From: Nocardia elegans NBRC 108235
Lineage (GTDB): Bacteria; Actinomycetota; Actinomycetes; Mycobacteriales; Mycobacteriaceae
DNA: 64,000 nucleotides
Direction: 5' to 3'
Assembly: GCF_001612845.1 (NCBI RefSeq)
Contig: NZ_BDBF01000002.1
Span: forward strand, 248,001-312,000
The position numbers and the translations under genes were made by a program. Shown here piece after piece: positions 551 through 64,000 of the stretch (positions are counted from its first letter, which is position 1; each line of letters opens with the position of its first letter). The notes below the pieces were generated by a model, which did no database searches, was not told where the DNA came from, and saw nothing but the letters and a program-made list of their open reading frames with translations.

Positions 551-574
551 GAAATGCTCCCGAATTGTTTGTGT

Positions 575-2018: not shown

Positions 2019-2039
2019 CGGCGACCGGCTACCCGGCTC

Positions 2040-6428: not shown

Positions 6429-6694
6429 TCCATCGCTCTTGTCGTCGGACCGGCTCAACACCGGCCCGGCATCTGGGAAGCCTAGGCGGCCGCGGCGGCG
6501 CCGTCGCACCGAAACGGTGCGGCAGCAACCCCGCCGAGGTCCGCCGCCGGCCCCCGCGACTACCCGTCGGGGAACCGGCCGCAACCATGGTTTCACTGCG
6601 TTACCAGCATGTTCGCGATACCGCGTCGGGTCAGCGATTCCCCGCCGAGGGCACCTGGAAACACGGGAGCGGGCAAACTCACCGTTCGCCCACC

Positions 6695-9327: not shown

Positions 9328-10014
9328 TCAGCCCAGGCTGAACGGATCGCCCCACAGCGTCACCCATGAGATGACGTTGTCGGTCTCGACCTCGACGCTG
9401 ACGAATGCGCGCGCCTGCGCGTCACCGCCACATCCGGTCAGGCCGATGGTTTCGTCGGTCCAGGCCACCGAACCGCTGTCACCCCGGAACTTGTTGCGGG
9501 GCTTGTGCACATCCTGGCCGACGTCGTCCTTCTCCTCGATGTCTAGGACATAGAACGACTTCGCCTGGCCAGGCGCGAGAATCAGGTTGCCGCCGACATT
9601 TCCGCCGGCATCCGGCTTGGCGTTCTCGCCGTCGCTCCAATCCATGCTCGCGCCGGGACCACCGTCGACGCCTACACCGGAAATGTCGACCTGGCAGCCC
9701 ACGGTGTACCCGGGGTAGATGCTGCCGCCCACGACGGTGGTGGCGCCGGACAGTTCGACATGGGCGCTACCCGAGACCCGGGCAGTACGGTGCACCGCCG
9801 GGACAACGATCGCCGGATCGATGGTCGCGGATTCGCCGTCCAGCCGGACATGCACGACGGTGCCGTCGGACAGCGTCTTGGACAGGTCGCCGCCGGGCAG
9901 CGGGACGAAGGTGCCGGCATTGGCGGCGCCGGTGGAGAACAGGCCGAGCGCGGCGGTCGCCACGGCACCGATGCCGGCGATGCGCGCACCCCAGACCCGA
10001 CCGTTCGTATTCAT
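9328..10014 (-). CDS. MspA-family porin-like secreted protein
   Basis: 228 aa. A signal peptide (residues 1 to about 33, ending S-T-G-A-A-N-A-G) is followed by beta-rich sequence with Y-P-G-Y-T-V-G-C-Q-V-D-I-S-G-V, L-A-P-G-Q-A-K-S-F and a final W-V-T-L-W-G-D-P-F-S-L-G, which recalls the Y-G-E-P-W ending of MspA. Two cysteines (G-C-Q-V and T-G-C-G-G) could form a disulfide, seen in nocardial members rather than in MspA itself. It probably forms pores in the mycolate outer membrane, as MspA does. ATG 10014 has GAGAG upstream. It is not obviously co-transcribed with moaB, being 108 bases beyond the small gene that precedes it. Confidence 0.82.
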   Translation of the reverse strand: MNTNGRVWGARIAGIGAVATAALGLFSTGAANAGTFVPLPGGDLSKTLSDGTVVHVRLDGESATIDPAIVVPAVHRTARVSGSAHVELSGATTVVGGSIYPGYTVGCQVDISGVGVDGGPGASMDWSDGENAKPDAGGNVGGNLILAPGQAKSFYVLDIEEKDDVGQDVHKPRNKFRGDSGSVAWTDETIGLTGCGGDAQARAFVSVEVETDNVISWVTLWGDPFSLG

Positions 10015-10943: not shown

Positions 10944-12488
10944 TCATCGGCCACCCTCCGCCGGTGCGGCGCCGAGGGTCACCTCGACGGTTTTCGGATT
11001 CTGTCCCTGTGGATCGGTGTAGGTGACCTTCACCTTGTCACCTGGTTGGTGCGACCGCACGGCGGCGATCAGCGAATTGCCCGAGTCGATGACCTGATCA
11101 TCGACGCGGGTGACGATCGCGCCCGACGGGATGCCCGCCTTGGCGGCCGGACCGTCGGGTGTCACGTCCAGAACCCGGGCGCCGTTGACGTCGTCCTGCG
11201 CGCGCACCGAGATCCCGATCTGAGCATAGGTGGCGTGACCGGACTTGGTCAGTTCGTCGGCCACGCGACGGGCCTGATCGACCGGAATCGCGAAGCCCAG
11301 ACCGATCGATCCGCTCTGCGAACCGGGCATCTCGGAGGCCCCGAGTGTGGCGATCGCGGTGTTGATGCCGATCAGCTTGCCGTTCGTATCGACCAGCGCG
11401 CCACCGGAATTACCGGGGTTGATCGCGGCATCGGTCTGGATCGCGGAGATGACCGTGCCCTGTGAGCCGGCCTCACCACTGGTCGACACCGGGCGGCTGA
11501 GCGCCGACACGATACCGGTGGTGACGGTTCCGGCCAGGCCCAGCGGCGAGCCGACCGCCACCACGGGCTGGCCGACCATGAGGTTGCGCGAGGTGCCCAG
11601 TTCGATCGGCGTCAGGTTGGTCTTGCCGGCCGCCTTGATGACGGCCAGATCCGACACCGGGTCGACACCGACGACCGAGGCATTGGCGGTACTGCCGTCC
11701 TGGAAGGCGACCTCCATCTTCGCGTTGGGACCGGCACCGCTGGCGACATGGTTGTTGGTGAGGATCAGCCCGTCCGAGGACAGCACCACACCCGAGCCCT
11801 CGCCCTCCGCGCGGGCGCCCGCGACGCGGATCATCACCACGCTGGGGAGGACCTTCTGCGCGACCGCGGGGACGGATCCGGGCGGCGCGCTCGCCGAGGC
11901 CGGATCGACCGGAGCGGGCGCGTTCAGGGCATTGTTGACCGGCGCGTTGTTGTTGTCCGAGCGCGTGACGAGGGTGCCGACCGCACCGCCGATACCACCC
12001 GCGACGAGCGCCAGCACGACGGCGCCGGCGAGCAGCCCCGCCCGGCCGCGGCGGCGAGGTGTCCCGGCGTGGACACCGGTGGGATCGGCGCCGGGGGGAT
12101 ACGGTTCGCCCGCGCGATGTTCGCCGGTGGCGGCGTAGGGCGTACCGGAGGGGTACGAGCCGGGCTGCTGATAGCCCTGACCCGACGTGTGGCCCGTCGC
12201 GGCGTACGGGTTGTACGGCGGCATCGGCGCGGTGTGCGCGCCGGGCTGTTCCTGCGGTCCCCCACTCGGACCGGCCGGTCCCGGCGACTGCGCACCGGCT
12301 TCGGCACCTGCCTGCGACGACGGCCCTGCCCACTGCGACGGTTGCCCCCACCCGCGCGACGCGTTTCCGGCATCCCCCTCCGGCGAAGCGGGCTGAGCCC
12401 CACTCGACGGCGACGTCGGCTCGGGCCCTCCCGACTGGGGAGTCGAACCGGTCGGCTCGTCGCGCCTGTCCCTCGAATCCTCGGTCAT
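10944..12488 (-). CDS. pepD: PepD / HtrA-type envelope serine protease with PDZ domain
   Basis: 514 aa. The first 145 residues are Gly/Pro/Gln-rich and cytoplasmic, then one membrane helix (AGLLAGAVVLALVAGG), then a trypsin-like protease with the catalytic set in I-L-T-N-N-H-V-A-S-G (His), V-S-D-L-A-V-I-K-A (Asp) and I-N-P-G-N-S-G-G-A-L (Ser), and a C-terminal PDZ domain (V-L-D-V-T-P-D-G-P-A-A-K-A-G-I). It degrades or senses misfolded envelope proteins. It sits directly downstream of mprB on the same strand, 194 bases away, with MprA-type repeats in that gap, as in mycobacteria where MprAB and SigE regulate pepD. Confidence 0.92.
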   Translation of the reverse strand: MTEDSRDRRDEPTGSTPQSGGPEPTSPSSGAQPASPEGDAGNASRGWGQPSQWAGPSSQAGAEAGAQSPGPAGPSGGPQEQPGAHTAPMPPYNPYAATGHTSGQGYQQPGSYPSGTPYAATGEHRAGEPYPPGADPTGVHAGTPRRRGRAGLLAGAVVLALVAGGIGGAVGTLVTRSDNNNAPVNNALNAPAPVDPASASAPPGSVPAVAQKVLPSVVMIRVAGARAEGEGSGVVLSSDGLILTNNHVASGAGPNAKMEVAFQDGSTANASVVGVDPVSDLAVIKAAGKTNLTPIELGTSRNLMVGQPVVAVGSPLGLAGTVTTGIVSALSRPVSTSGEAGSQGTVISAIQTDAAINPGNSGGALVDTNGKLIGINTAIATLGASEMPGSQSGSIGLGFAIPVDQARRVADELTKSGHATYAQIGISVRAQDDVNGARVLDVTPDGPAAKAGIPSGAIVTRVDDQVIDSGNSLIAAVRSHQPGDKVKVTYTDPQGQNPKTVEVTLGAAPAEGGR

Positions 12489-12532
12489 ATTTCTCGTTTC
12501 TCCTCGAGTCTGTCGCCCAGCCTGGTGACAGC

Positions 12533-12551
12533 GACTGAGAGCGGACTGAGA
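12533..12551 (-). promoter_or_regulatory. Paired direct repeat before pepD, probable MprA site
   Basis: Reading the minus strand, TCTCAGTC occurs twice with three bases between (period 11, one helical turn). The same paired repeat lies before mprA at 14881-14899. It is 45-63 bases upstream of the pepD ATG. MprA boxes in M. tuberculosis are described as two 8-base direct repeats. Confidence 0.65.
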
Positions 12552-12682
12552 CCGTGCTTTCAGTTCTCCGTGACTCCCTGCCGTATCCGGCCGCCGCAGC
12601 CGGGTTTCCGCGGGACGGTACGCATGCGTGCCAGTTTATGGGGCGGCCCCACGCGCGCCCATCGATTCCGGATCGCCGCTGA

Positions 12683-14080
12683 TCACTCCCGGCGATCGGC
12701 GGCGGTCGGCGGTTCGCCGGGAAGGACGATCCGCACCAGCGTGCCACCGCGTTCGGAGGTGTCCACGGTGATCGTGCCGCCGTGCTTGGACACCACCTGC
12801 TTCACGATGGCCAGCCCCAGTCCGGATCCAGGCATCGATCGCGACGCCGTGGTGCGGTAGAAGCGTTCGAAGACCAGTTCCCGTTCCTCCGGCGGAATGC
12901 CCGGCCCGGCATCGTCGATCGCGATCTCCATGAGTCCCGGCCCGGTTTCGCGCATGGTCAGGACGACCTGCGCCTCCGGCGGACTCCACTTCGCCGCGTT
13001 GTCGAGCACGTTGAGGATGGCCCGCTCGAGTCCGGCGTCGTGGCCGTAGACGAACCACGGCCGCAGCTGCGCCGAGAATTCGACGTCCACGCGCCGCCGC
13101 CGCACCCGTTCCAGCGCGCGCTCGGCCACTTCACCGAGATCGACCCGCTCGTAGACGGTTTCGGGCGCGTCCTCGCGAGCCAGGTCCACCAGGTCACCGA
13201 CCAGCGTGGACAACTCCTCGATCTGGGCGATCACATCCGCGCGCAGCCCGGCCATATCCTCCTCGGGAATCGGCGGTGCGTCCGGGCGTGAGGAGGCGAT
13301 GAGCAGTTCCATATTGGTGCGCAGCGAGGTCAGCGGCGTGCGCAGTTCGTGTCCGGCGTCAGCGACCAGCCGCCGTTGCCGGTCGCGAGATTCGGCGAGC
13401 GCCCGCAACATCAGATTGAAACTCTCGGTGAGCCGCGCCAGTTCGTCGTCACCGGTGACCGGAATCGGCGCCAGATCGTCGGTGCGCGCGACGCGTTCGG
13501 TGGCCGCGGTCAATCGCGCGATGGGCCGCAGCCCGGTCCGCCCGACCGTCGCACCGGCGGCCCCGGCGACCAGCACGCCACAGCCGCCGATCGTGAACAG
13601 CAGCCACGCGAGCCGGTCGAGCACTTCACGGGTGGGTTCCAACGACCGTGAAATAACCAGTGTCGCACCGGATTTCGTGCGCCGGGCGAGTACGCGCTGA
13701 TTGTTCGCGGTCCGGAGCGAGACGTCGGCCTTACCGTGCGCCACCGCCATCTCGGCCGGGCCGATCGGCGGATCCATCGGTTGCGGCGGGGCATAGGGCA
13801 CATCGACGTCGGGATAGATCAGCGCGATGCCGATATCGTTGGAGTACAGGCTGCTGAACATGATGATCGCCTGGAAGCCCTGCAGGTCGATGTTGTTCTT
13901 GACCATCACCTCCGAGCGGCTGCGCAACTGACTGTCCACATCGGCGTACAGGGCGCGGGCGACCAGTGCGTAGGCGGCGATCGAGGTCACCGCGACGGCG
14001 ATCGCCACCACCGAGGCGGCCAGCAGGGTCACCCGCCAGCGCAGCGACACCGAGCGGGTCAGCGGCATCGGCGGGCGCAT
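12683..14080 (-). CDS. mprB: Sensor histidine kinase MprB
   Basis: 465 aa from ATG 14080 (461 from the ATG at 14068; a longer frame to 14158 has no support). Two membrane helices flank an extracytoplasmic domain of about 115 residues (first: VTLLAASVVAIAVAVTSIAA; second: LAWLLFTIGGCGVLVAGAAG). A HAMP region follows, then the H-box A-D-A-G-H-E-L-R-T-P-L-T-S-L, the N-box L-D-N-A-A-K-W-S, and ATP-lid motifs D-D-A-G-P-G-I-P and G-S-G-L-G-L-A-I-V. In mycobacteria MprB senses envelope stress and unfolded extracytoplasmic protein and phosphorylates MprA. It follows mprA closely (89 bases between mprA stop and this ATG). Confidence 0.92.
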   Translation of the reverse strand: MRPPMPLTRSVSLRWRVTLLAASVVAIAVAVTSIAAYALVARALYADVDSQLRSRSEVMVKNNIDLQGFQAIIMFSSLYSNDIGIALIYPDVDVPYAPPQPMDPPIGPAEMAVAHGKADVSLRTANNQRVLARRTKSGATLVISRSLEPTREVLDRLAWLLFTIGGCGVLVAGAAGATVGRTGLRPIARLTAATERVARTDDLAPIPVTGDDELARLTESFNLMLRALAESRDRQRRLVADAGHELRTPLTSLRTNMELLIASSRPDAPPIPEEDMAGLRADVIAQIEELSTLVGDLVDLAREDAPETVYERVDLGEVAERALERVRRRRVDVEFSAQLRPWFVYGHDAGLERAILNVLDNAAKWSPPEAQVVLTMRETGPGLMEIAIDDAGPGIPPEERELVFERFYRTTASRSMPGSGLGLAIVKQVVSKHGGTITVDTSERGGTLVRIVLPGEPPTAADRRE

Positions 14081-18107: not shown

Positions 18108-18514
18108 CCGACACTGCGCAGAACACCACAGACGAGAATTTGAACTGGCTCGTCACCCGCTTCACCAGAGAAGTGCCTGGAGTCTCGCACGCGGTGCTCG
18201 TGTCGGCCGACGGCCTGCTCCAGGCGACCAGCCCGCATCTCCCGTCCGATCGCGCCGAACAGCTCTCCGCGGTGACCGCCGGTCTGGCGAGTCTGTCGGC
18301 GGGGGCGGCGCAATTGTTCAACGGCGGCAAGGTGATGCAGTCGATCGTCGACATGCAGCGCGGCTACCTGCTGGTGATGAGCGTCGGCAACGGCTCGCAC
18401 CTGGCGGTACTGGCCAACAAGCAGCACGACATCGGCCGCATCGGTTACGAGATGGCCTTGCTCGTCGATCGAGTCGGATCGGTCGTGCAAGCCACGGCCC
18501 GTTCGGCGGTCTGA
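18104..18514 (+). CDS. cvnB: Roadblock/LC7-domain protein CvnB
   Basis: 136 aa. [26 protein letters not shown] is the start of the Roadblock/LC7 fold, and [18 protein letters not shown] is its central sheet. Its ATG overlaps the cvnA stop (ATGA), so translation is coupled. By family it modulates the nucleotide state of the partner GTPase CvnD, as MglB does for MglA. Confidence 0.93.
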
Positions 18515-18522
18515 CGATTGCG

Positions 18523-18897
18523 ATGTCCAGCTCGTTCGGAGCCGGGTCCGGCCGGCCAACCACACGCGTCCGTCCTTATGCGCTGACCGCTGGGCGCACC
18601 GAGCCCGCGGTCGAACTGCCCCTCGAGGCGGTCGTGGAAACACTGCCCTACGCCAATCAATTCGATTGGCCCGCAGGCGATATTCGAACAGATATTCTGC
18701 GTCTGGGCGCGGGTCGGCTCTCGGTCGCCGAAATCGCCGCCCATCTACAACGTCCCCTGGGCATGATCCGGGTGGTGATCGGCGACCTCGTGGTGGCCGG
18801 AACCCTCCGGGTGCACACCACGCTCAGCGAGGACGCCAGTTTCGACGAGCGGCGATCCCTGATGGAGAGGACCCTGCGTGGACTCCGTGCCCTTTGA
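18523..18897 (+). CDS. cvnC: DUF742 protein CvnC
   Basis: 124 aa with the DUF742 pattern: R-V-R-P-Y-A-L-T-A-G-R-T near the start and a winged-helix-like segment, I-L-R-L-G-A-G-R-L-S-V-A-E-I-A-A-H-L, then L-G-M-I-R-V-V-I-G-D-L. It begins eight bases after cvnB and its end overlaps the cvnD start by 20 bases. Function within the conservon is not established. Confidence 0.9.
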   Translation: MSSSFGAGSGRPTTRVRPYALTAGRTEPAVELPLEAVVETLPYANQFDWPAGDIRTDILRLGAGRLSVAEIAAHLQRPLGMIRVVIGDLVVAGTLRVHTTLSEDASFDERRSLMERTLRGLRAL

Positions 18898-51782: not shown

Positions 51783-53189
51783 GTGATCGGTTCCGGGGGT
51801 GCGGAGCTCGCGGAGTTGGCCGATCGGATCGTCGCCGGACTGCGCGGTATCGCGCCGCCGGGATGGCAACGCCTGGAGGCTTCGTTCGCTATAACCGTTG
51901 TCGCCGAATCGGCGTTGTTCCTCGCCCATGATGGCGACAGCCCGGTCCGGTGTCAGGTGTCCGAGGAAGTGTCGGAGTTGGTGCGCCGGCACCGACAACT
52001 GTCGGGGGCGCTAACGGACGGACCATGGTGGCGGCTGATGGTGTACGTCGATGCCGACGGAGCCGAGGTGGTCACCGATCAGGGCGCGGAGCCGTTTCCC
52101 GGTGAGCAACTGTTCGCGCCGCAGGCGTATCTGGCCGATCTGGAACGTTATCCGCGCGGTCGGCTGCCGGTGTGGCTGGCCGCCTATATCGGGCGCGGTG
52201 CACCCCAGTCGAGGCCACCACGCGCGGCTGCGGACGATGTGCGCGCGGACCGGAGTGCGGGTGTGCAGGCGATGCCCGTCACCGGCGAGTTGCCGGACCT
52301 GGCGGTGTTGTGGGCACGGTGGGCGGTACTGGCCGGGGCCTTCGTCGCGGTCGGATCGGAACGAGGGCCGCGGATCGGTCCATCTGTCGGCGTTTTCGAA
52401 AGTGCAAGACACAGTGGTTCGACGTTGACGCTGCTGCCCGGCGATCGGGCGGTGCTATCGGGAGGCGTTTGGGATGCGCCGATCTTGGATGCCGCCTACA
52501 ACGGTGAGGGCGCAATGCCGAAATTGTTTGCGGGAGCGCCTGACTGGGTGGTAGACCCGGTGCTCAACCCCCGAGTGATGACCGGCATGCTCTCGTTCTG
52601 CTATTGGTGGGAGAAGGGGCAGTGGTACCGCGGTGAATCCGCTCCGATCTCGGAATGCGCGGCGGCGTTGCCTGCCGTGTGGACGGGCGACATGGTGGCG
52701 AAAGTAGTGGCCGGTGTGTTGGACAGCCCATCAGCCGATGCCGCGGCGCTGCTGGTATCGGCCGCGCAGGCCGCGGCTGTGACGCGCGAGGCGATCATGC
52801 AGGTCGTCGGGGACGACACCGAGGCCGATGTCGACGGTGCACTGTTCCAGTTCCTGCTCGCGGATCTGGTTGCCGGTGATGTCGCCGGGATCCGCGAAAC
52901 GAAGGCGTTGCACCTGGTCCGCGAGCACATCCGTGGGCGGGGCGAGGACACGACCGGGTACCCCCTCTCGACGTTGCGGGCCGAGCGGATCAGCGTGGGC
53001 TGGATGGTGCGATCGCCGGTGCCGGACAACGAGATAGCGCTCGACCGGGCAGTCTTCTATGTCGCAGACGATGGGGTCGTGGAGCGTTCGAGCTCATCGG
53101 TGCCGCTGTCCGCCTTCATCACCGACTTCGAGCGGCGGTTCCGGCTGCGGGTCAGCGGCGGGACATTACCGGCCCGAGGCGGGCGATGA
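51783..53189 (+). CDS. Conserved-type protein of type VII/polymorphic-toxin loci
   Basis: 468 aa. I recognise it by type, not function. The first 150 residues (A-P-P-G-W-Q-R-L-E-A-S-F-A-I-T, then P-W-W-R-L-M-V-Y-V-D-A-D-G and R-L-P-V-W-L-A-A-Y-I) resemble the YezG-like / ESX-associated proteins found beside WXG100 toxin genes in actinobacteria. The middle has repeats of a second strand-rich domain (L-P-G-D-R-A-V-L-S-G-G-V-W-D-A) and the C-terminus closes with R-S-P-V-P-D-N-E-I-A-L-D-R-A-V-F-Y-V-A-D-D. GTG 51783 has GGGAG six bases upstream. Its TGA overlaps the next ATG. An immunity or chaperone role is possible. Confidence 0.7.
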   Translation: MIGSGGAELAELADRIVAGLRGIAPPGWQRLEASFAITVVAESALFLAHDGDSPVRCQVSEEVSELVRRHRQLSGALTDGPWWRLMVYVDADGAEVVTDQGAEPFPGEQLFAPQAYLADLERYPRGRLPVWLAAYIGRGAPQSRPPRAAADDVRADRSAGVQAMPVTGELPDLAVLWARWAVLAGAFVAVGSERGPRIGPSVGVFESARHSGSTLTLLPGDRAVLSGGVWDAPILDAAYNGEGAMPKLFAGAPDWVVDPVLNPRVMTGMLSFCYWWEKGQWYRGESAPISECAAALPAVWTGDMVAKVVAGVLDSPSADAAALLVSAAQAAAVTREAIMQVVGDDTEADVDGALFQFLLADLVAGDVAGIRETKALHLVREHIRGRGEDTTGYPLSTLRAERISVGWMVRSPVPDNEIALDRAVFYVADDGVVERSSSSVPLSAFITDFERRFRLRVSGGTLPARGGR

Positions 53190-54811
53190 GCGGCGAACTT
53201 CGATTGGACTTGGCCGGCCTGCGCGAGCGCGCCGCACGGCTGGCCGACATCGCCGATCGGGTGAAGCAGACCCATGCCGGGCTACAGGATTGCCTGAACC
53301 GAGCCGAAGGTAGCTGGGGCGACGACCACATGGGTCGAGCATTCGCCGATCAGTTCACGCCACATGCCGATCAAGTACTGGCCAACGTGCAGGCAATGCA
53401 GGAACACCTGCGCAGTACCGCTGCCGGAATCAACAGCACCGCAAACGAATTCGGCATACAGGATGCCGACAACGCCGCGCGCGTGGCCGGGGCGGCCGAC
53501 GCTCGGGGCCCGGGGGCAGACAACCTCACCGGGTCGTGGCCGAATGATGTGGCCGGCCCGTCCTCGCCCGGCGATGTGCGTTCACCGGTGCCGTCCGATC
53601 GGGCCGGTCTGTCCCCGGAGCAGTCGTCTGCGCGATACCCTGCTCGCGGAGCGAGCCGCACCGAACAACATCCGCCCGGCGGACAACAGTTACCCGGGGG
53701 GCAACAGTCGGTCGGTAGCGCCCGGTCGCCGGAGGGATCCCAGGGTCGGGCCGTTCCGAATGATGATCGGCCGTCGCGGGCGCCGTGGAGTCGTTCTCGG
53801 CCCGAGACAGGTCCGGACAGTCGCGATGCGGCCGGCGAATCCGGCAACCGGTCCCGGCCCGCCTCGGCGCCCCCGTCCGCTGCGGTATCACCGCCGCGCG
53901 GTCGGCGGGACGCGCGCCGGACGCCGGGTGGGCCGACCGGAAGTCGGGCAGCGGGCCCCGTCGGGCAGCGCGAAACCCCATGGACCGGGCAGCCTCCCGG
54001 GACAACCGCTCCGCCTCGAATGCCGGGCGCGCCGGGCAACTCCGGGAGTCCCGGTAACACCGGGACGGATCCTCAGCACCGCACCCCGCCACGGCCGAAC
54101 ACGCCCTCCGGTGACAAGGCCCGTGAGCGTGATCGGCGTGGCACCCGTGAACGGCCGGCCTCCGATCCCTCGATCGTCCGGCTGGCACGCGCATTGGCCG
54201 AGCGGCACAGCGTCCAGGTGGCCGGGTTCGACTCCCCCGGCCTCCAGCTCGCGGCCGTCCAGGATTTCGTGACCGCGGTGGACCGAGTGCTCACCGACTA
54301 TCCGATGATCGCGCTGGATATCGTCGCGGTGGCCGAACTCGACGACGAATTCGGAATCGTGCGGTGGAGTTGCGAACCGCCCGACGACCGGGACGGCACC
54401 ACGTCGATGACGCTCGACCGCCGCACCGCCCAAACGTCGACGGCTACCGGCCGAACCACGGGATCCGACGAGCCGACACCGCCGGACATCTATCCGGCGA
54501 CGCTACGAGCGTTCGGCAGGGCTCTCGATGCCGCCGGCGGTGGCGTCGCACGCAGACAGGCGCAGCGTGCCCTGATCGCGGAATACCTGCACACACAGGC
54601 GCCACTCGACAGTACGCTCGCCGCGGTGGTGCGTGGCTACCGGGACTGGCGTGCCGAATTGGCCGGGAATGCCACGGCACCAGGCGAATTCGATGTGGAC
54701 GAGGCACTCGGCATCGCGTTCGCGACGGTGGTCCAGCACGGCGAGACGGCGGGTATCCAGGCGAGACTGCTGCATGCGGTGCTGGTCGCCGCGGCATCCC
54801 GGCCGGGGTAG
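53186..54811 (+). CDS. WXG100-like N-terminal domain with long linker and C-terminal helical/strand domain
   Basis: 541 aa. Residues 1-95 form a helical hairpin with S-W-G-D-D at 43-47 (W44) as in WXG100/ESX proteins, flanked by helices of A-A-R-L-A-D-I-A-D-R-V and L-A-N-V-Q-A-M-Q-E-H-L. Residues 100-325 are Pro/Gly/Arg/Ser-rich and disordered. The C-terminal 210 residues hold A-L-A-E-R-H-S-V-Q-V-A-G-F-D-S-P-G-L, a motif I know from large actinobacterial toxins, then a helical part. It ends nine bases before the giant gene. The WXG part suggests secretion by a type VII system, though no secretion genes are in the window. Confidence 0.75.
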   Translation: MSGELRLDLAGLRERAARLADIADRVKQTHAGLQDCLNRAEGSWGDDHMGRAFADQFTPHADQVLANVQAMQEHLRSTAAGINSTANEFGIQDADNAARVAGAADARGPGADNLTGSWPNDVAGPSSPGDVRSPVPSDRAGLSPEQSSARYPARGASRTEQHPPGGQQLPGGQQSVGSARSPEGSQGRAVPNDDRPSRAPWSRSRPETGPDSRDAAGESGNRSRPASAPPSAAVSPPRGRRDARRTPGGPTGSRAAGPVGQRETPWTGQPPGTTAPPRMPGAPGNSGSPGNTGTDPQHRTPPRPNTPSGDKARERDRRGTRERPASDPSIVRLARALAERHSVQVAGFDSPGLQLAAVQDFVTAVDRVLTDYPMIALDIVAVAELDDEFGIVRWSCEPPDDRDGTTSMTLDRRTAQTSTATGRTTGSDEPTPPDIYPATLRAFGRALDAAGGGVARRQAQRALIAEYLHTQAPLDSTLAAVVRGYRDWRAELAGNATAPGEFDVDEALGIAFATVVQHGETAGIQARLLHAVLVAAASRPG

Positions 54812-54820
54812 GTCACGGCG

Positions 54821-57800
54821 ATGGACGGTTCGCTGTTCAGCCCGGTCGTGGAGCTGCGGAACGCTTTCGAAAGTCTGCCCGGCTTCCTGCGGACTCCCAT
54901 CGAAATGGTGGTGTTCGGCGGAGAGCTCCCGCGCGCCGACATTTCCGAGATGCGCCGGATGGTCGCGGAGTTGCGCGCCTGCGGCCGCGAGCTGGAAGAC
55001 CATTCGTCTGATATCAAAAGCCTTTTGGCACAGGAGGATTCGGTCGGAGAGCTGGCCGACAAGCTGCGCGAGGCACTGCGGTCGTACCGGAAGGGCGCGG
55101 CCCGGCTCGGCGATGACGTGAACACCCTGGCCGATCAGGCGCAGCAGGCAGCCAACGATGCGGAGAAGTGGCTGTGCGTGATGTTCGCGTTCGGAATCCA
55201 CTTGGCATGGCGGATCTACGGATTGATGGCCGGCGCTGCCGCAGCGGGCCCGGCCGGACAGGTCGCGGCGGCGCCGGCCGTGGAGTCCGCGTTGATCGAG
55301 GGACGCACCGAGGTCGCCGCGATGCGCACGGGTCTGGAGCGGGCAATTGCGGCGGGCGGCGCGGAGACGGCTGCCCGGTTGAGCAGTATGGGGCCCTTGC
55401 AGCTCGTCACCATGATGGGCAAGGCAGCCGCGCTGCCCGTGGCTGTCGACGCGGGTGTGCAGGCGCTGCAGGTTGCCACCGGTGATCGCACCGCCGACAT
55501 CATCGGGTCGGACGGTTCGAATCCGACCGGTATCGATCTGAAGTCGATCGAAGTCGCCGCCTTGGCCGGCGCGGGTGGAGCGGCGGGCGGCATGCTCGCC
55601 GGCAGGTTCGCGCCGATGGTGTTCCCCCGGATCGGGAGCAGTCGCTTGGCCATGGGCCTGGTGCACGGCACCGCCGGTGCGATATCGGGTTTGGGTGCGG
55701 CGTCACTCGTGGCCGGTTGGCCGCAACATTATGACCAGGTGCTGGCGCCGCTGCTCAACGGCGCTTTCGCCGGGGGCGTGCACGCCCGAGGCGGAGCCCA
55801 TCCCGCAGCGGTCGACGGCGCCGGGACGTTCATGCCGCCCGATCCCATCTCGGCGGGGCATGAAAAAAGCACGCCGGCGGCTCGGCCACCGGTCGAGGTG
55901 GCGCCGGAATCGAAACGTGCGTGGGATGCCGCGAAGCAAGCCTGGGGGACCGGGCCGGATGCCGCGAAATCCGGAGGTGAGCGCGGCGCGGCGCCTGCCG
56001 AGGTCACCGCGAACCCGAAAACCGGGACAGCGGAGGCCCGGTCACCCGAGGTACCGGGCGCATCGGTCTCGGCCGACAGCGCCGCCGGGCGCCCGCCCGG
56101 GCCGCAGATCACTGCCCGTCCTGCTGCCTCCGACGCTGCCGCGGCACGGTCGGGCGCGCATTCCGAGACGGCCGCTCCGGGCGAGCGGCCACCGGTCGAT
56201 AAACCGGTCGCCGCCGGGAAGGCGACCTCGCCCCGATCGGTCGAGGCGGTGGGCGAAACCTCGCCGCCACCGAAGCTCCGGGCGAGCGCCACGCCACGCC
56301 CAGTCGGCGAAGTTCACGAAAAGGCCGGCACCCCAACCGAGAACCGCGCACACGCGAAAGCCGGTCCGGGCCCGTCCGGAGAACACACCGCGGTCGCGGA
56401 CGGTGCCGGCAACGAGACATCGGCACGGCCTCACCCCGTGGCCGAGGGCGAAGCGGGATCGCCGGGCGCTCATGCCGAACACGGATCGTCGGGTAGCGAA
56501 GCGCATGCGGCCCCGCAACGGGATGCGACCGCCGAGCAGTCCGGCCCGGAAAGTCCCCAGAGCTCGGGACGGACCGAGGCGGACGGCACGGAAATGCCTG
56601 CCACAAGCGGACATTCGTCATCGGTGCATGACGAGCAGAGTGTTCCGGCCACCGACCACGACAGTCTCGCCGACGCTGCCGGTCTGCCACGCAGCGACCG
56701 CGACCGGGCGGTCGATCTGCTGATCGACTTCCACCAGGCCTCCGCCGAGCATGTTCCGGAAGGTCAACGCCTGCACAACCTTCCGGACGAGGTGGTGATG
56801 GCCGGACTGTTCGACGGCGATCCGCACCATTCGATGCTGGCCACAATGGAGATCATCCGGCGCGGCACGGTCAGTGACGCGGTGCCGGGGGGGATGGTGC
56901 TGCGGGCCGAGCAGGCGGAAGCGGTGTACGCGCTGGCCGCGCGTCCGGTGGAGATGAAACCGGGCGAGGGCAAATCGCTGGTATTCATGGCGGCCGCAAT
57001 GCAACGTGCGGTGCGCAACGAGTCGGTTCTCCTTGTGACCACCACCGATGGGCTGGCCAATCGAGAAGTCGTCAAGTACCAGAAGTTGTTGACCGACTTC
57101 GGGATCGACGTGTTCCGAGCCGATCAGCAGGGTGGCTTCGGACCGATCACGAAGGGCCGGCCGGCGATCGTGGTTGCCACCGGCGAGACGGTCGGACATT
57201 TGTGCAACGCTGGGCACGCACCACCACGACATGTGCTGATCGACGAAATCGACGGGATCATCGACCGCGGTGAGCGGCAGTTCCTCCGGTCGGAAGGTGC
57301 CGAGCAGGCCGCGCCGGAGACAACGGCCCGGCAGGTGTTCGACGCACACGATTTCCTCGCCGATGCGCTGGGGAACGGGACGCTGTCACATGAGGATTTC
57401 GGCCTCACGCGACTCGCCGAGGAAGTCGGGGTACAACCCGACGGCACACCGGAGGTCATGTTCTGGTACGACGGTCAGCCCGAGCTCACGCCCGAGGGGC
57501 GGGCAAAGGTCGAGGCGCTGCCCGGCGGTGGGAACTGGCTGAACGGAATGGGAGCTTCCCGGCTGGAGACCGCGGCCCATGCCGAATTCCTCGTCCGTGC
57601 GGGTGTCCACTACGAAATGGACACGGGCAAGATCGTCATCATCGACCAGGCCGAGCATGGCCTGCAACGCAATCCGAAAACTTCGAGCGAATCACGGTGG
57701 AGCGCGGAGCCCGGTAAGGCGAGTCTCGCACAGGCCATCGAAGCGAAGGAGATCCGCGCGGCCGAGGCCCGCGGGGTGAATGCCGAGGAGCATCGGATCG

Positions 57801-60800
57801 TCGTGCGCGCGGATGCGGATTCCGCCAAACGCATCGATTCGGTCGAAATCTACCGTGCCGGAGGCACGTTCTTCGATGAGGTAACCGGTGCGTCCGGCAC
57901 TCTCGCCGACCTCAACCCGGTGCTGCAGAAGATCTACGGTCTGGAGCCGGCGCACGAGGTCGGGCGGTCGCAGTCGCACCGGCTGGTGGAGGGCGCCCCC
58001 GACGTGGTCGAGAGCACCCACGCCAAACTGCGTACGATCGCCGACTACGCGAACGAGATGCGGGCCGACGGTGAAGGCCGGTTTCAGCAAATCTTGTGTC
58101 ACCGCAACGATCTCGTCGCCCGGCAGGTGGACGCACTGGTGCGCGCCGGGGTGCCGCGAGATGCTATCGAAGCGGTCGACGCCAAGCGGATCATCGGGTG
58201 GGGCGCGGACTGGGAAGCCCAGTTGCAGAAGGTTTTCGATAATGCCGGTGAGCAGGGCAAGATCCTGGTGATCAACCGGCAGGGCCAGCGCGGCGTCGAT
58301 ATCTCGGTATCTGATGCGGTGCGGGCCAAGGGCGGCATGCACGTGTGGATGACCGAGGCCCCGGAGCAGTCGTACATCCACGAGCAGGCCAAGAACCGCA
58401 CCGCACGGAACGGTCAGCGCGGTAGCGCGCAAGTGGTGATGTCGCCCCAAGACGCTCTGATTCGCAATGCCATGCATCTGCGCGGTGTACGTGCGGCGGT
58501 GGTTCACTACGAACAGGCTGTGGCCTCCCATGCCGCCGATCCCACCCCCCAGACCCACGATGCGGTCGTCGCGGCGAGCCACGCAGTCCGGGAGCTGGCA
58601 CCCGAATTGCAACAGCGTGCGCTGCGGCAGTCCACCGCGGCTTTCATCCGCCACCACGCCTTCTCGACCTACATGCCCACCCTCACCCTCGCCGAAGCCG
58701 AGACCGGGCAGTACCGCAGTGACACCGACTTCACCCGCCCGGATGAGCCGGCGGACCGCACGGCGCGCCTGGCCGGGTTGCTGGGGATCCCGGCTCCGGC
58801 CCTCGCGAACCAGATAGCCGCGCTCGAACGCAACGGCGCCATCGACCCGCTTCGCGAGCTGCTGGACCAGGCCGGCATCGCGCCCGCCGCGGCGGAGGCA
58901 CTGCGTCAACATGTCGAGGCCACCGCGCCCGCGACGGCGCTGCAACGCGCGCTGTTCACCGATGAACAGGCGTTGAATCACCTGACGCCGTTGCGGAACC
59001 GGCTCGCCGCCGAACTCGGGATGCCGATCGCGGCTATCGACGGCGCCGAAGGTATGCGCACTCTCGATCCCGCGCTGACCGAGGCCAGGGACACCCTCGC
59101 GGCAGCGCTGGGATATCCCGCCGCCACCGTTACCCCCGCCATCGCGCGCGACATCCTGGGCGAAGCGGTCGGCGATCACTCGACCGCCACGAGCGCCGGG
59201 CAGTTCGCCGCCGGAGACGGTATCAATTCGGCTGCGGTAGTTTCCGGACCGGTGAGCCGGGACGCCCACAATCCGGACACCCAGAACGCGGAGTCCCAGA
59301 ATCTGGCCGTCCAAGCGGCGAACGTCCGAGATGAAGACGTCCAGAACGCGGATACGCGGGATGTCGCTGACGGGGCGGCCGATGACATCATTGCCGCCGC
59401 GTCTCGGTATTTGGCCATTGCGGCCCTGCTCGACTCGGTCGTGCAGATCAATCGACTCACACCCAACAGTTGTGTCAACAATGCTGTGACCGGTATGCGA
59501 GTGTTGTGCCCCGACAACGCGGGTCGCTTCCAGATGCCCGCCGCCAGGTTGGGCGGCCACGGCCGCGACACCGTGCGCAAGATATTCGGCGCCGGGCTCG
59601 AGCAAGCCGGATCCCTGGACCAGGTAGCCGAATCGTTGAAGTCCCGGCCCGGTGGAATTACCGTTCTGGTCTACAAGTGGAAGGACACCCGAGCCGCCGG
59701 CACCAGCGTCGACGCTGACGACCATATGGTGCTGCTGGTCAACGACAGCACCTCGGTCGACGACCCGAACCTGGTCGTCGTCGACCTGGCCGCGTCGCGG
59801 GACGGTAACACCGAGAACGACTACGGCCCCAAGGACCTCCGAAACCGCCGCGCATTGCTGAACAAGGCTGTCGGATTCGATGAGTGGCGCCGCCGGCAAC
59901 AGAAGTTCATCGATCGGCTGCCGGTGGAGCGGCGACTGTTCGAGACCATCGAGTTCGACCGCGACGGCAACCTCACCGCGGATCCTCGCCGAGGCGCCCC
60001 CACGGCCGAGAGCCTGCCGCCGTCGCAGCGCGTCGCCGTCCCCTCCGCCATGGTGGACGAGATCAATTCGGTGCCCGCCGGGCAACCCGGCCTGAGCACG
60101 CCGGCACCGGATCGACCGTTCGCCGCCGCGGACACAGACCGGGACGAACTCTCGCCGGTCGGCAGCAGACCCCACGAGGGCTCTGCCGACGATCACACGA
60201 ACGCATCCGATCGTCCCCTTCCGTCAACGCTCCAGCTGATCCAGGACCGTGACCAGCTGAACCGCCTACGTTCGCGCCGTGACGAGCTGCGAGGACAGCT
60301 GCGCCGGCTCGGGGGTGCGGCCGTCGAGCCGTTCGGCAGAAGGCCAGTCGAACTGCTCTATCTGAGGCTGCGCGACGAGCTGCGTGCAGGTGTGGGGCCG
60401 ATGGCGGACAACCAGCGCCTCGTCGAGCTGATCGAGCAGTACCAGGAGCTCGACACGCTGGTCGTATCCGCCGACGAAAGCCTCCTGGTCGCGGGCGTCC
60501 GGACCTACGACGCCGGCTCTGCAGAGGCGATGCCGTTCTACCGTCCCTGGCAGGGGACGGCCGAGGAATTCAACGCGCTCTCCGATGCGGACAAACATGC
60601 CGTAGCCAAGGCCGAACTGTCCGAGGGCACAGTGGATTTCGACAACCCCGCAGCGGGTGCAGAGTACGCCCGGACGCACATCGGGACCATCGCGGCCGAA
60701 CATGCCGAGTCTATTCAGTGGGCAAAGCAGGACGCCAACGGCGCCTCGTTGTTCGGATATTCGGCGGTCAGCCGGTACGTGGCGACACCCTACGAGGAGA

Positions 60801-63800
60801 AGACGGTCGACGATCCGTCCCGGCCGCATGTCCGACACCTCGATACCGCCATCCTGAGCAACCGTACAACCGTCGACTCCTGGGTAGTCGCCGAGACCGT
60901 ACTGGACCCGGCCGACAACCATGATCCTGCAGGCATGCGCGGCCAACTGTGCGACGCCCAGGGCTATCTGTGCGGCGAAATGGGCAGCACACCATCGGCC
61001 CGCTTGCGGGATTCCGATGTCGTCCATCTGCGGGTACCGGCCGGAACTCCCCTGCTCGGCACCGAATCGGTCACCGGCATACCGGAAGTCCTACTCATGC
61101 ACGGAACTCGGTACGTCGTCACGCGATCATTCGCCGACGAGCATGGATTGGTTCATGTGTACGGGTTCGTCCTGGCCGACGAATGGGGACCGGTCCCGGG
61201 GTCGTCGCCATACGAGCACCCTCCCGTCGAGAACGACGTCGCGGAATTCGACGACGAACCGGGGTTGCGGTTCGACGGCCTTACCGCCGGCGACGAGGAG
61301 CAAGCCGACCGGGTGGAACGACAGATCGTCGAGTTGTTGGACGGCTGGTCGGATCCGGCTTACGTGCGGGAGATCGCCGCGGCCGTCGGCGCGTCGATTC
61401 GATGGGGACAGGGACCGATATCTCTCGGAGTCGAGCTCGGGGCCGAGCAGGTGCACGTAGATCTCGTCGATATCACGGGGAACAACAGCTATGTGCGGGT
61501 CGAGTGGCGGCTGGCACGGACGCCCGGTCCGGTGGAACGGGCCGCCGAGCCGCCGGTCGAAAGGTCCTCGGAAGAAATCGATCTCGACCGTCTGATGGAG
61601 ATGTTCGGCGAATCCGAGCCCGAGGAGATACCGCCGTACCAGCGGGAGGTTCGCCGGATTCGCAATGCCGTCGAGGAACGGCTGCTGGAAGACGATGCGT
61701 ACATCTCCGGCGACCTGGTCGACAGCATCATGCGAGCGGTGAGCGAACTGGTCACCAACGCGAAGAAGCACCTGCACAGCAATGCCTCGTCAGCAGGCCT
61801 GGCGCCGGAGGAAGTCCTCGATCTGGCGATTCGGGGTACCAGGGGCGACCGCCAAGTGCACCTCGCGGTCACCAATGACATCGCCCCGGGCATCGCCGCG
61901 AAACTGCCGAAGTGGACAGCCGACGAACAAGCTGTGGACCGGGAAGGCGGCCGCGGCACACAGCTCGTGGTCGCCGAGAGTACGGTCGCGGTCCGCCACA
62001 TCACCTTCGCCGACAGCAAGAACACGATTGAGCATTCGGTGGAATACCACGCGGCACCTCCTACGGGTGATGTCGCGGTAACGCACAGCCGCAGCACAGC
62101 GCGCAAGCCCGCCACCTCCCGGTACGCCACGACGGGCCGTTTCCTGCGCCGCGCCACCCAGGAGCCGGCCGATGCCGTACCCGATCACGTCGTCGCCTGC
62201 GCCGGCGCGACCATCCGGGCCGCGTGGGCCGACGGATTGGACGATGCGCTCATTCCGCATCAGGACGCGGAGAGCTGGGACGAACTCGTCACCGGCCTCA
62301 CCACCGGTCTCGCCGAAATCGTCGATGCCGAAGGGGCTCTTGCGGAGCGCCTGGATCACGAAATCGACAGTCTGCTCAACCCCGAAAACCCGCGGTACAG
62401 TTCGGTCTTCGTCGCCGAGCGCGACGGAATCGCTCACGCCTTCTATGTCACCCAGCTCGACGGCGTCCTCTTCGTCTACGACACCAACGTCCCTCGCATC
62501 GCAGACCCCGACCTGGGCGGCAAACCCATCGCCCGAATCCGCGACCGCGACACCTGGCAGCAATTCTTCCGACAGTCGTTCCCCCGGGTGGACCGAGCCT
62601 TCTTCGCCCACTTCGAAAAGACTGCAGGCCGTCTCACGCCTCTCCCGCACGAGACGGGCGCCGTACTCGCCGGCACGAATGCACCGGTCCGGGGACAGCC
62701 GAACGACCCGACATCGTCAACGCTGCGTCGCGCCCAGAGCGGTGATGGCACGGCGTTCCGAGAACTGCGTGAACGATACGGTGAGGAGACGTTCCGACGC
62801 GTGCTCGTCATGTTGGCCCCGGGCACAAGACCTTCGGTCGGCCCTGAATTCGACCGACTGCGGACCGTGGCTCAATACATCAATCGGACCGTCTTTCGAA
62901 TTGCGGAGACTCGGCGCTGGCCGGTGGCTGCGGAGGAGGACACCGGAACGTGGATCCTCGGCGTAGCGCAACTCGCCGTGCGGGCATGGACCGGCCTGAC
63001 CCCCACACAGCGTCGGATCATCACCGAAGCAATCACTTCACCGCGACAAGACAGCACGCCATCGCAGCGCGGGGCGTTCGGCGCGTTTGCCCAGTCCATC
63101 GAGGCGCTACTCCAGATCGACGTCGCGTCGGCAGGCGACGAACACATCGAATTGACCACTGAAGCCCCGGATCACGGCCTGACCGATCTCGAGCTCCAAT
63201 TGATCCGGATGGTTGCCGCCGGGTTGTCGAATGACGACATCGCAAGTCGGCTGGACCGCTCGGCGAGCCGAGTCAAGTTCTACCTGAAGCAGATCGGTGA
63301 CAAGCTGGGGGATCACGGCCGGATCGGAATCGTCTCGGCAGCAAGAGATCTGGGCCTGCTTTCGGAAAACGATATCGCGTTGCCGCTGGAGAAGCCGTCG
63401 AACCGAGCACTGACTTCGCGAGAAGTATCGGTCCTTGAATTGGTTGCCGACGGTATGTCGAACAAGGCCATCGCTGCGCAACTCGGCGTGTCACCGCTGA
63501 CGGTGAAGGCCCATCTTGCCCGCATCGGCGGCAAACTCGGCATCAGCGATCGCGCCGGGATGGTGGCACGGGCCATCCACGCCAGCCTCCTCTCCTCGAC
63601 CGATGACCACCCGAGCTTCGATCTGTCCGAAGCGGAACGCGAGGTGCTCGGGTTGGTCGCAGAAGGCCTGAGCAACAAGGAGATTGCAGTCCTACTCGTG
63701 GTATCCCCCGACCAGGTGAAGGGCCATCTGAACAGGATCGGCGCCAAGCTCGGCGTTCGCGATCGTGCAGGCCTGGTAGGTAAGGCAATGCGTGCCGGCA

Positions 63801-64000
63801 TTCTCTCGCTCGCCCAAGCCCCCGCGAATGGCAACACCGGCCTGTATGCCGGCGTGGGTGCGTTGTCCGAAACCGAGGCCAAGATTCTTGGCCTGGTCAA
63901 GCAGGGTAAGACAAACAGACAAATCGCGGCGACGCACAACATCTCACCCACAACCGTCAGTGCGTACCTGATTCGCATCGGACTCAAACTGCACACCAGC
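54821..64000 (+). CDS. Giant multidomain protein: SecA-like ATPase, papain-like, ART-like, GHKL ATPase and four LuxR-type HTH domains (3' end outside window)
   Basis: 3,060 codons are open to the window edge with no stop. N-terminus (1-320): helices and a hydrophobic Gly/Ala-rich part, reminiscent of CpnT-like toxins. 320-610: low complexity. 619-1215: SecA-like ATPase with M-K-P-G-E-G-K-S (712-719), I-D-E-I-D (807-811), R-G-V-D (1157-1160) and H-E-Q-A-K-N-R-T-A-R-N-G-Q-R-G (from 1187, like SecA motif VI). 1540-1680: papain-like, C1551, H1635, D1655. 1804-1830: coiled coil. 1925-2115: ART-like, P-E-V-L-L with E2089, S-T-P in place of S-T-S. 2280-2420: GHKL ATPase, E2309/N2313 and G-G-R-G-T (2376-2380). 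2455-2600: second papain-like candidate, C2460, H2539, D2554. 2634-2700: sigma-region-2-like. 2785-3060+: LuxR HTH at 2785, 2862, 2933 and 3015. GGGTAGG precedes the ATG. Confidence 0.85.
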   Translation, partial: MDGSLFSPVVELRNAFESLPGFLRTPIEMVVFGGELPRADISEMRRMVAELRACGRELEDHSSDIKSLLAQEDSVGELADKLREALRSYRKGAARLGDDVNTLADQAQQAANDAEKWLCVMFAFGIHLAWRIYGLMAGAAAAGPAGQVAAAPAVESALIEGRTEVAAMRTGLERAIAAGGAETAARLSSMGPLQLVTMMGKAAALPVAVDAGVQALQVATGDRTADIIGSDGSNPTGIDLKSIEVAALAGAGGAAGGMLAGRFAPMVFPRIGSSRLAMGLVHGTAGAISGLGAASLVAGWPQHYDQVLAPLLNGAFAGGVHARGGAHPAAVDGAGTFMPPDPISAGHEKSTPAARPPVEVAPESKRAWDAAKQAWGTGPDAAKSGGERGAAPAEVTANPKTGTAEARSPEVPGASVSADSAAGRPPGPQITARPAASDAAAARSGAHSETAAPGERPPVDKPVAAGKATSPRSVEAVGETSPPPKLRASATPRPVGEVHEKAGTPTENRAHAKAGPGPSGEHTAVADGAGNETSARPHPVAEGEAGSPGAHAEHGSSGSEAHAAPQRDATAEQSGPESPQSSGRTEADGTEMPATSGHSSSVHDEQSVPATDHDSLADAAGLPRSDRDRAVDLLIDFHQASAEHVPEGQRLHNLPDEVVMAGLFDGDPHHSMLATMEIIRRGTVSDAVPGGMVLRAEQAEAVYALAARPVEMKPGEGKSLVFMAAAMQRAVRNESVLLVTTTDGLANREVVKYQKLLTDFGIDVFRADQQGGFGPITKGRPAIVVATGETVGHLCNAGHAPPRHVLIDEIDGIIDRGERQFLRSEGAEQAAPETTARQVFDAHDFLADALGNGTLSHEDFGLTRLAEEVGVQPDGTPEVMFWYDGQPELTPEGRAKVEALPGGGNWLNGMGASRLETAAHAEFLVRAGVHYEMDTGKIVIIDQAEHGLQRNPKTSSESRWSAEPGKASLAQAIEAKEIRAAEARGVNAEEHRIVVRADADSAKRIDSVEIYRAGGTFFDEVTGASGTLADLNPVLQKIYGLEPAHEVGRSQSHRLVEGAPDVVESTHAKLRTIADYANEMRADGEGRFQQILCHRNDLVARQVDALVRAGVPRDAIEAVDAKRIIGWGADWEAQLQKVFDNAGEQGKILVINRQGQRGVDISVSDAVRAKGGMHVWMTEAPEQSYIHEQAKNRTARNGQRGSAQVVMSPQDALIRNAMHLRGVRAAVVHYEQAVASHAADPTPQTHDAVVAASHAVRELAPELQQRALRQSTAAFIRHHAFSTYMPTLTLAEAETGQYRSDTDFTRPDEPADRTARLAGLLGIPAPALANQIAALERNGAIDPLRELLDQAGIAPAAAEALRQHVEATAPATALQRALFTDEQALNHLTPLRNRLAAELGMPIAAIDGAEGMRTLDPALTEARDTLAAALGYPAATVTPAIARDILGEAVGDHSTATSAGQFAAGDGINSAAVVSGPVSRDAHNPDTQNAESQNLAVQAANVRDEDVQNADTRDVADGAADDIIAAASRYLAIAALLDSVVQINRLTPNSCVNNAVTGMRVLCPDNAGRFQMPAARLGGHGRDTVRKIFGAGLEQAGSLDQVAESLKSRPGGITVLVYKWKDTRAAGTSVDADDHMVLLVNDSTSVDDPNLVVVDLAASRDGNTENDYGPKDLRNRRALLNKAVGFDEWRRRQQKFIDRLPVERRLFETIEFDRDGNLTADPRRGAPTAESLPPSQRVAVPSAMVDEINSVPAGQPGLSTPAPDRPFAAADTDRDELSPVGSRPHEGSADDHTNASDRPLPSTLQLIQDRDQLNRLRSRRDELRGQLRRLGGAAVEPFGRRPVELLYLRLRDELRAGVGPMADNQRLVELIEQYQELDTLVVSADESLLVAGVRTYDAGSAEAMPFYRPWQGTAEEFNALSDADKHAVAKAELSEGTVDFDNPAAGAEYARTHIGTIAAEHAESIQWAKQDANGASLFGYSAVSRYVATPYEEKTVDDPSRPHVRHLDTAILSNRTTVDSWVVAETVLDPADNHDPAGMRGQLCDAQGYLCGEMGSTPSARLRDSDVVHLRVPAGTPLLGTESVTGIPEVLLMHGTRYVVTRSFADEHGLVHVYGFVLADEWGPVPGSSPYEHPPVENDVAEFDDEPGLRFDGLTAGDEEQADRVERQIVELLDGWSDPAYVREIAAAVGASIRWGQGPISLGVELGAEQVHVDLVDITGNNSYVRVEWRLARTPGPVERAAEPPVERSSEEIDLDRLMEMFGESEPEEIPPYQREVRRIRNAVEERLLEDDAYISGDLVDSIMRAVSELVTNAKKHLHSNASSAGLAPEEVLDLAIRGTRGDRQVHLAVTNDIAPGIAAKLPKWTADEQAVDREGGRGTQLVVAESTVAVRHITFADSKNTIEHSVEYHAAPPTGDVAVTHSRSTARKPATSRYATTGRFLRRATQEPADAVPDHVVACAGATIRAAWADGLDDALIPHQDAESWDELVTGLTTGLAEIVDAEGALAERLDHEIDSLLNPENPRYSSVFVAERDGIAHAFYVTQLDGVLFVYDTNVPRIADPDLGGKPIARIRDRDTWQQFFRQSFPRVDRAFFAHFEKTAGRLTPLPHETGAVLAGTNAPVRGQPNDPTSSTLRRAQSGDGTAFRELRERYGEETFRRVLVMLAPGTRPSVGPEFDRLRTVAQYINRTVFRIAETRRWPVAAEEDTGTWILGVAQLAVRAWTGLTPTQRRIITEAITSPRQDSTPSQRGAFGAFAQSIEALLQIDVASAGDEHIELTTEAPDHGLTDLELQLIRMVAAGLSNDDIASRLDRSASRVKFYLKQIGDKLGDHGRIGIVSAARDLGLLSENDIALPLEKPSNRALTSREVSVLELVADGMSNKAIAAQLGVSPLTVKAHLARIGGKLGISDRAGMVARAIHASLLSSTDDHPSFDLSEAEREVLGLVAEGLSNKEIAVLLVVSPDQVKGHLNRIGAKLGVRDRAGLVGKAMRAGILSLAQAPANGNTGLYAGVGALSETEAKILGLVKQGKTNRQIAATHNISPTTVSAYLIRIGLKLHTS

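Follow-up and report, generated by a model that had tools for sequence, protein, structure and literature searches.

Zhang et al. 2012 (PMC3482391) reported giant actinobacterial multi-toxin proteins, the longest of which is the 13,652-aa SACTE_5178 of Streptomyces; lethal-factor-like metallopeptidases, caspases, ADP-ribosyltransferases (ARTs) and MCF1-SHE are combined in such chains. A comparable design is that of the MARTX toxins of vibrios, single giant chains which, according to the consulted section of PMC6315884, possess repeat-containing arms, up to five modular effectors and a built-in cysteine protease (CPD) cutting between them. The present analysis concerns a stretch of 64,000 nucleotides (hereafter the window) from Nocardia elegans NBRC 108235 (contig NZ_BDBF01000002.1, positions 248,001 to 312,000, forward strand), at the end of which a gene for a protein of 13,398 aa begins. 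This giant consists of a constant head and of cargo modules that are exchangeable between relatives, and with about even chances it represents a type VII-linked, MARTX-like multi-effector polyprotein.

The giant gene (contig 302821-343017) forms a single frame without any N and with an in-frame stop just 5' of its start at window position 54821. An earlier note, based on the letters of the window, had counted at least 3,060 codons; the frame is indeed open to the window end, its full length amounts to 13,398 codons, and the gene ends 31,017 bases further on. The window (G000:C2:248001-312000) therefore holds residues 1-3060 (23 %), and 10,338 of the 13,398 residues lay beyond the view of that note. 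In a search of the genome, the LuxR matches were placed in a frame of 13,401 codons.

Relatives were sought with the SecA-like part of the head (residues 601-1300). Of 148 genomes of the genus, 77 (own included) contain a match to it at E ≤ 1e-10. Among the matches listed, this part never occurs in a frame of fewer than 1,426 codons, and the longest frame comprises 20,471 codons. From the upper part of the match list, 17 giants of 16 genomes were fetched, the stop-to-stop frames of which range from 2,938 to 18,823 codons (that of G002 runs off its contig). Residues 1 to ~1790 are common to all 17 relatives at 58-77 % identity, which is in part a consequence of their selection by the SecA-like part. 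At about residue 1790-1811 the relatives diverge from the own giant, and downstream of the head they carry the modules in differing combinations, with identities of 46-94 % (only those ≥45 % being counted). Module order is largely kept across the relatives, with shared modules reordered in G102 and G031. A relative at ≥45 % identity among the 17 giants exists for 9,175 of the 11,608 cargo residues (2,433 without).

Six of the relatives (G134, G078, G037, G133a, G102 and G035) occupy the same site as the own giant, i.e., between a GntR-type regulator gene and a DUF2630-carboxylesterase gene pair, and frame lengths at this common site vary from 7,178 to 15,998 codons, entirely within one frame. 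For G002 the left flank alone is visible, and for the other ten relatives neither flank lies within the fetched stretch. The giant of G134, a genome marked as the same species, comprises 7,178 codons and coincides with the own giant (13,398) in the head, in a piece of 160 aa and, at 94 %, in the C-terminal 766 residues; no further common cargo was detected at ≥45 %. The ratio of nonsynonymous to synonymous substitution rates (dN/dS; Nei-Gojobori script) was determined for head and for cargo having close relatives, and was 0.28-0.43 in all 14 comparisons (2 head, 12 cargo). Judged by these ratios, the cargo modules compared are under purifying selection.

The end of the constant head is marked by the sequence VGSRPH, the first instance of a linker motif ([IVLM]G[SAT][RKAH]P[HTAQ]) that occurs 62 times in the 18 giants, whereas 20 shuffles contained it 3.75 times on average and 6 times at most. 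Fifty of the 62 sites are no more than 40 aa away from a homology breakpoint (mean for random positions 9.06, maximum 16 in 200 draws), and by its position this IGSRP linker marks some of the module junctions. A wider form of the motif yielded 104 sites, 74 of which remained once sites with similar flanks were removed. The linker arginine is encoded by AGR in 34 of 56 deduplicated Arg-bearing sites (8.2 % overall; 30 of 272 control [SA]RP sites) and the linker serine by AGY in 43 of 48 (31 %). Such codon usage suggests that the linker DNA itself was probably copied, which fits cassette exchange by recombination at the linker. Site-specific recombination was considered but is not claimed: the giant gene holds the only two exact copies of the 14-mer ATCGGCAGCAGRCC in the genome, but when one mismatch is allowed there are 56 sites versus 15 for the reversed control. 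At the end of the G003 giant the frame is broken, and the cargo goes on in the next frame, with the linker motif close to the start of that frame.

Within the head, the SecA-like ATPase recognised in the earlier note was confirmed by a SecA_DEAD match above the Pfam cut-off; the P-loop_SecA profile scored slightly below its own (26.4 vs 27 bits). In common with the SecA/SecA2 translocase ATPases it displays Walker A (MKPGEGKS, 712-719), DEID (808-811), GVD (1158-1160) and R-rich (QAKNRTARNG, 1189-1198) motifs, in which P714, G715, G717, K718, S719, D808, E809, D811, G1158, V1159, D1160, R1193 and R1196 are invariant among 17 aligned heads (own included). In contrast to these ATPases, it is embedded in a giant chain, and a true SecA was rejected on account of the best NCBIfam SecA model scoring 59 bits (cut-off 862). 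The candidate Cys1551 of the following papain-like domain is kept in all 17 aligned heads. No Pfam match was obtained for this domain in scans of the whole chain (13,398 aa in 11 overlapping pieces, E ≤ 0.01); its structure model aligns best with proteins which we take to be papain-like effectors. The N-terminal domain was modelled as all-helical at low confidence (predicted local distance difference test, pLDDT, 51.5), and a Foldseek search with this low-confidence model returned 216 rows at E ≤ 10, none of them at E ≤ 0.001. The giant's own N-terminus has no WXG100_2 match in the Pfam scan. Searches of PDB sequences with the papain alignment, the N-terminal alignment and the C-terminal module gave nothing useful.

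The cargo inside the window (Table 1) ends with the four LuxR-type helix-turn-helix (HTH) modules named in the earlier note, all scoring above the Pfam cut-off, the fourth being split by the window end. The GHKL ATPase and the second papain-like candidate of that note gave HATPase_c_2 and Gln_amidase matches, respectively, both of them under cut-off; the module that holds the GHKL-like domain (residues 2135-2635) is common to relatives at 58-82 %. The stretch regarded as ART-like found no profile backing and has a relative (33 %) within a giant of 40,807 codons, and the supposed sigma-region-2-like stretch near residue 2640 likewise lacks profile backing, a Sigma70_r2 match being located far beyond the window instead. 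Kinase-like (12400-12620, 12690-13398), metalloprotease-like (HEFGH, ~4727) and further papain-like readings were made by eye, with no Pfam match there. Long stretches of the giant lack any profile match. A segment of ~190 aa is repeated three times (6451-6645, 8299-8479 and 11107-11287; 39-48 % identical) and one of ~150 aa twice (74 %). A ChaN/Tiki-like (Cofac_haem_bdg) match at residues ~5171-5320 (L003 ~18331-18780), under cut-off, would be unusual cargo. Nonribosomal peptide or polyketide synthases were rejected, as scanning the entire protein against Pfam revealed no such domain.

Table 1. Features of the giant gene and its upstream partners (window coordinates; residues refer to the 13,398-aa protein)
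Feature	Residues	Position in window	Strand	Evidence and remarks
468-aa protein, fold unassigned, first gene of three-gene cassette		51783..53189	+	upstream in 16/17 relatives, 73-83 % identity
541-aa WXG100-like partner		53186..54811	+	Pfam WXG100 E 1.1e-4, 22.9 bits (cut-off 27.3)
Giant gene, part within window	1-3060	54821..64000	+	
Helical N-terminal domain	1-345	54821..55855	+	66-87 % identical in 14 aligned relatives
SecA-like ATPase	~621-1290	56681..58690	+	Pfam SecA_DEAD 33.7 bits (cut-off 24.6)
Papain-like domain	~1515-1770	59363..60130	+	candidate Cys1551 and His1635
First linker motif VGSRPH, end of constant head		60158..60175	+	G-x-R-P in 17/17 aligned heads, own included
Stretch called ART-like in the earlier note	~1900-2125	60518..61195	+	no Pfam match at E ≤ 5
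GHKL/HATPase_c_2-like domain	2273-2383	61637..61969	+	Pfam E 0.001, under cut-off
Second papain-like candidate	~2450-2610	62168..62650	+	Gln_amidase E 0.036, under cut-off
LuxR/GerE HTH 1		63179..63337	+	39.7 bits (cut-off 23.5)
LuxR/GerE HTH 2		63407..63565	+	65 bits
LuxR/GerE HTH 3		63623..63778	+	51.1 bits
LuxR/GerE HTH 4, cut by window end		63863..64000	+	51.5 bits, contig 311863-312024
MFS-like module 1	~5830-6240	beyond		no Pfam match; named by similarity to module 2 alone (25 %, E 5e-15)
MFS-like module 2	~9515-9915	beyond		Pfam MFS_1 41.5 bits, over cut-off
Sigma70_r2	11382-11442	beyond		Pfam match
zf-HC2	11546-11580	beyond		Pfam match, after Sigma70_r2
PP2C-like domain	12018-12268	beyond		NCBIfam Stp1 79.4 bits (cut-off 230); no Pfam match at E ≤ 0.01
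Second HATPase_c_2-like domain		beyond		E 6.7e-4, under cut-off
Two sigma-region-4-type HTHs, one LacI HTH, four further LuxR HTHs		beyond		profile matches

The cargo modules were searched for in 78 genomes of the genus (own included). All 48 places matching the tandem-LuxR module at E ≤ 1e-15 are located in frames of at least 4,779 codons, a threshold that favours tandem arrays and a count in which several places share a frame; all 15 places of the C-terminal module (own included) are in frames of at least 1,584 codons. The possibility, raised in the earlier note, that the modules always exist as separate genes does not hold in view of these large frames. The MFS module was found at 21 places. 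Fourteen of them, including all 7 at ≥35 % identity, lie in frames that comprise 2,098 codons or more; the remaining 7 (434-616 codons, 26-29 % identity) have the size of ordinary MFS proteins. In three of these genomes there are five further giants with a WXG100_2-type domain at the N-terminus, in 3 of the 5 over the Pfam cut-off, and these giants share cargo with the own one at 23-49 %; the linker motif is unmatched in these five, two of which were read in part. In the single-contig genome G051 (C1:1939687-2062110), a 40,807-codon open frame is followed by same-strand frames of 10,828 and 15,942 codons; WXG100_2-type heads are present, and in the five pieces of this locus that were scanned there are arrays of LacI and LuxR, HTHs of the sigma-4 type and a weak match to PP2C. 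Other frames of 19,559 to 20,955 codons are present in the genus (G103:C94, G018:C82, G144:C2 and G082:C1).

Within the order, the N-terminal model matches 2 of 298 genomes (the own and one of the same genus; 1 of 76 genera), and a GTDB scan with two peptide patterns yielded 38 loci, all titled Nocardia. Among the 38 named of 43 large homologues, P0040, labelled Streptomyces gardneri, bears the sole non-Nocardia label. Each public name of a homologue (LuxR regulator, MFS transporter, NUDIX, amidase, GNAT) reflects just one of its cargo domains, so that the class is easily overlooked in databases.

The WXG100-like gene lies directly upstream of the own giant and recurs upstream in all 17 relatives (in G133b its C-terminal part alone). 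The 468-aa protein has 224 invariant positions in 17 sequences and no Pfam match at E ≤ 0.01 or PDB sequence match at E ≤ 10; at a guess, it is a candidate chaperone. Three EccB loci were detected in the source genome. As regards a type VII substrate, the own N-terminus has no match to a domain of the WXG100, LXG or WXG100_2 type, the WXG100 score of the partner is below cut-off, and other giants sharing cargo have WXG100_2.

Hydrophobicity and cysteine content bear on the question of export. The two MFS-like modules of the own giant (borders set by eye) contain no 19-residue window with a mean hydropathy ≥1.6. On the basis of aligned stretches, the loops of which differ somewhat, 15 giant-embedded modules (2 own and 13 others) were compared with 7 standalone MFS proteins from the same search. 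Without overlap between the two groups, the grand average of hydropathy (GRAVY) was 0.27-0.64 versus 0.76-0.98, the ten highest-scoring windows averaged 1.06-1.41 versus 1.67-1.85, and the number of these ten windows at ≥1.6 was 0-5 versus 6-8, respectively. For GRAVY and the ten-window mean, the Mann-Whitney p of 1.2e-5 overstates the significance, as several of the modules are closely related to each other. According to Krampen et al. 2018 (PMC6110835), effectors of the type III and IV systems have transmembrane segments that are mostly just below the hydrophobicity required for targeting to the producer's inner membrane, and the same adaptation would allow the MFS-like modules to leave the producer. 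Such membrane-protein effectors resemble the present cargo in their transmembrane-type segments and in a hydrophobicity below that of normal membrane proteins, but belong to other secretion systems, whereas whole MFS-like modules are involved here. The cysteine content of 16 of the 18 giants is 0.06-0.34 % (own 0.29 %) as compared to 0.55 % pooled over 54 neighbour genes, a weak hint at export.

The closest working analogy is provided by the MARTX toxins: a single giant chain, modular effectors differing between alleles and a cysteine protease (predicted in the present case) cutting between them. The own giant may work alike without being a member: it has a larger number of modules, a SecA-like part and a gene for a WXG100-like partner, and no CPD family was found in the Pfam scans of its 11 pieces. 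With the SACTE_5178-type multi-toxins it has in common an actinobacterial origin, a length of more than 10,000 aa and several effector-type domains per chain; it differs from the giants of Zhang et al. 2012, as far as their available description goes, by the SecA-like/papain-like head, the IGSRP linkers and the regulator/transporter cargo. The text of PMC3482391 at hand contains no match for sigma factor, helix-turn-helix, major facilitator, PP2C, LuxR or Nocardia, and names SecA once, for Amoebophilus effectors. The arrangement, not recognised from the literature in the earlier note, has a precedent in the giant multi-toxins of 2012, while the combination of head, linker and cargo looks new. 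By title, literature searches found no work on such Nocardia giants; NOCYR_4710 of N. cyriacigeorgica was reported as an unusually large gene annotated as carboxypeptidase (consulted part of PMC3751702), and the part of PMC11573180 at hand has no match for Nocardia. The WXG100_2-headed giants of Nocardia contain relatives of the LuxR array, the C-terminal module and an MFS-like module. Type VII polymorphic toxins with such heads are those of the CpnT type; the own family differs in that its head has no WXG100_2 match and adds SecA-like and papain-like parts.

As a MARTX-like polyprotein, the giant would be exported together with its WXG100-like partner via one of the three ESX loci of the genome, the SecA-like domain would unfold or pull the chain, the papain-like domain is predicted to cut it partly at or near the IGSRP linkers, and the cargo would act in another cell. 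This joins two of the options of the earlier note, a delivered effector and a self-processing polyprotein, and disfavours its third, an internal switch; action in the nucleus of a target receives no support from the data. As much of the cargo is similar to components of bacterial regulation and transport (GHKL, PP2C, sigma with zf-HC2, LuxR, LacI, MFS), the target is, at a guess, more likely a bacterium than a eukaryote. In the own genome and the six relatives with both flanks, the genes next downstream code for DUF2630 (~90-200 bp from the giant) and carboxylesterase and not for an immunity protein, as would be compatible with a target that is not kin or with an effect that does not kill. Several findings weigh against this scheme: the MFS-like modules could alternatively be degenerate, soluble relatives; the cysteine content is 0.49 and 0.65 % in G121 and G135, and 19 of the 54 neighbour genes have ≤0.30 %; the linker motif lies near just 60 of 328 breakpoint clusters; and G146 and G133b hold none of its 62 sites, the last one of the own giant being at residue 4860.

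Sigma- and HTH-type regulatory domains work with bacterial RNA polymerase, and they are abundant in the cargo (some HTH family in 30 of the 43 large homologues), so the giant might stay in the producer as an intracellular switch, from which cutting frees regulators (sigma, LuxR, LacI, GHKL, PP2C) that reset the producer's own transcription. We regard this as unlikely, given that cargo differs strongly between same-site alleles, even within the species (13,398 vs 7,178 codons in G134) and unlike a housekeeping regulon, that the hydrophobicity of the transporter-like modules is low for ordinary insertion into the own membrane, and that a WXG100-like gene is located upstream. A polymorphic toxin of the classical antibacterial kind, carrying more than one killing domain and with its immunity proteins encoded elsewhere, would agree with the constant N-terminal and variable C-terminal part seen in all 17 SecA-selected relatives, the weak Gln_amidase match, the precompiled Pfam domains of toxin type (8) or ART type (1) in 9 of the 43 homologues and the precedent of the giant multi-toxins in the consulted text of PMC3482391. 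Its probability is likewise low, since no gene intervenes between giant and DUF2630 in the seven loci with both flanks, and most of the profile-matched cargo of the own giant is not toxin-type. Of recognised toxin domains it shows a sub-threshold Gln_amidase match, the ART-like stretch being without Pfam match.

The marked size variation at one site, the reordered modules and the conservation of the linker DNA itself would also be expected of a recombination sink, in which captured gene pieces gather in one frame without selected function. The low dN/dS in all comparisons, cargo included, and stop-free frames of up to 40,807 codons render this very improbable. Scarcely credible is, finally, an artefact of assembly or frameshift fusing separate genes: the source assembly consists of 117 contigs and the frame is interrupted in one relative (G003), but large frames with the same head are also present in the single-contig genomes G133, G121 and G135, which makes assembly error unlikely; moreover, the fetched stretches are free of N, and GC by codon position is coding-type along the whole frame (14 of 14 blocks). 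The frameshift or assembly error that the earlier note feared might separate the modules is thereby countered.

On the preferred reading of an exported multi-effector polyprotein, a more specific picture may be drawn, which is tentative and falls well short of even chances: Nocardia would export control kits of regulators, signalling enzymes and hydrophobicity-tuned transporters that reprogram neighbour bacteria, each chain with motor and protease on board and its kit drawn from a shared cassette pool by linker recombination. If true, one polypeptide with its own motor, protease and strain-specific effector train would constitute a new Gram-positive delivery design. From the regulator, phosphatase and transporter cargo one could then surmise that targets of type VII-linked giants are reprogrammed and not just poisoned, and the linker offers a testable rule for some of the module borders.
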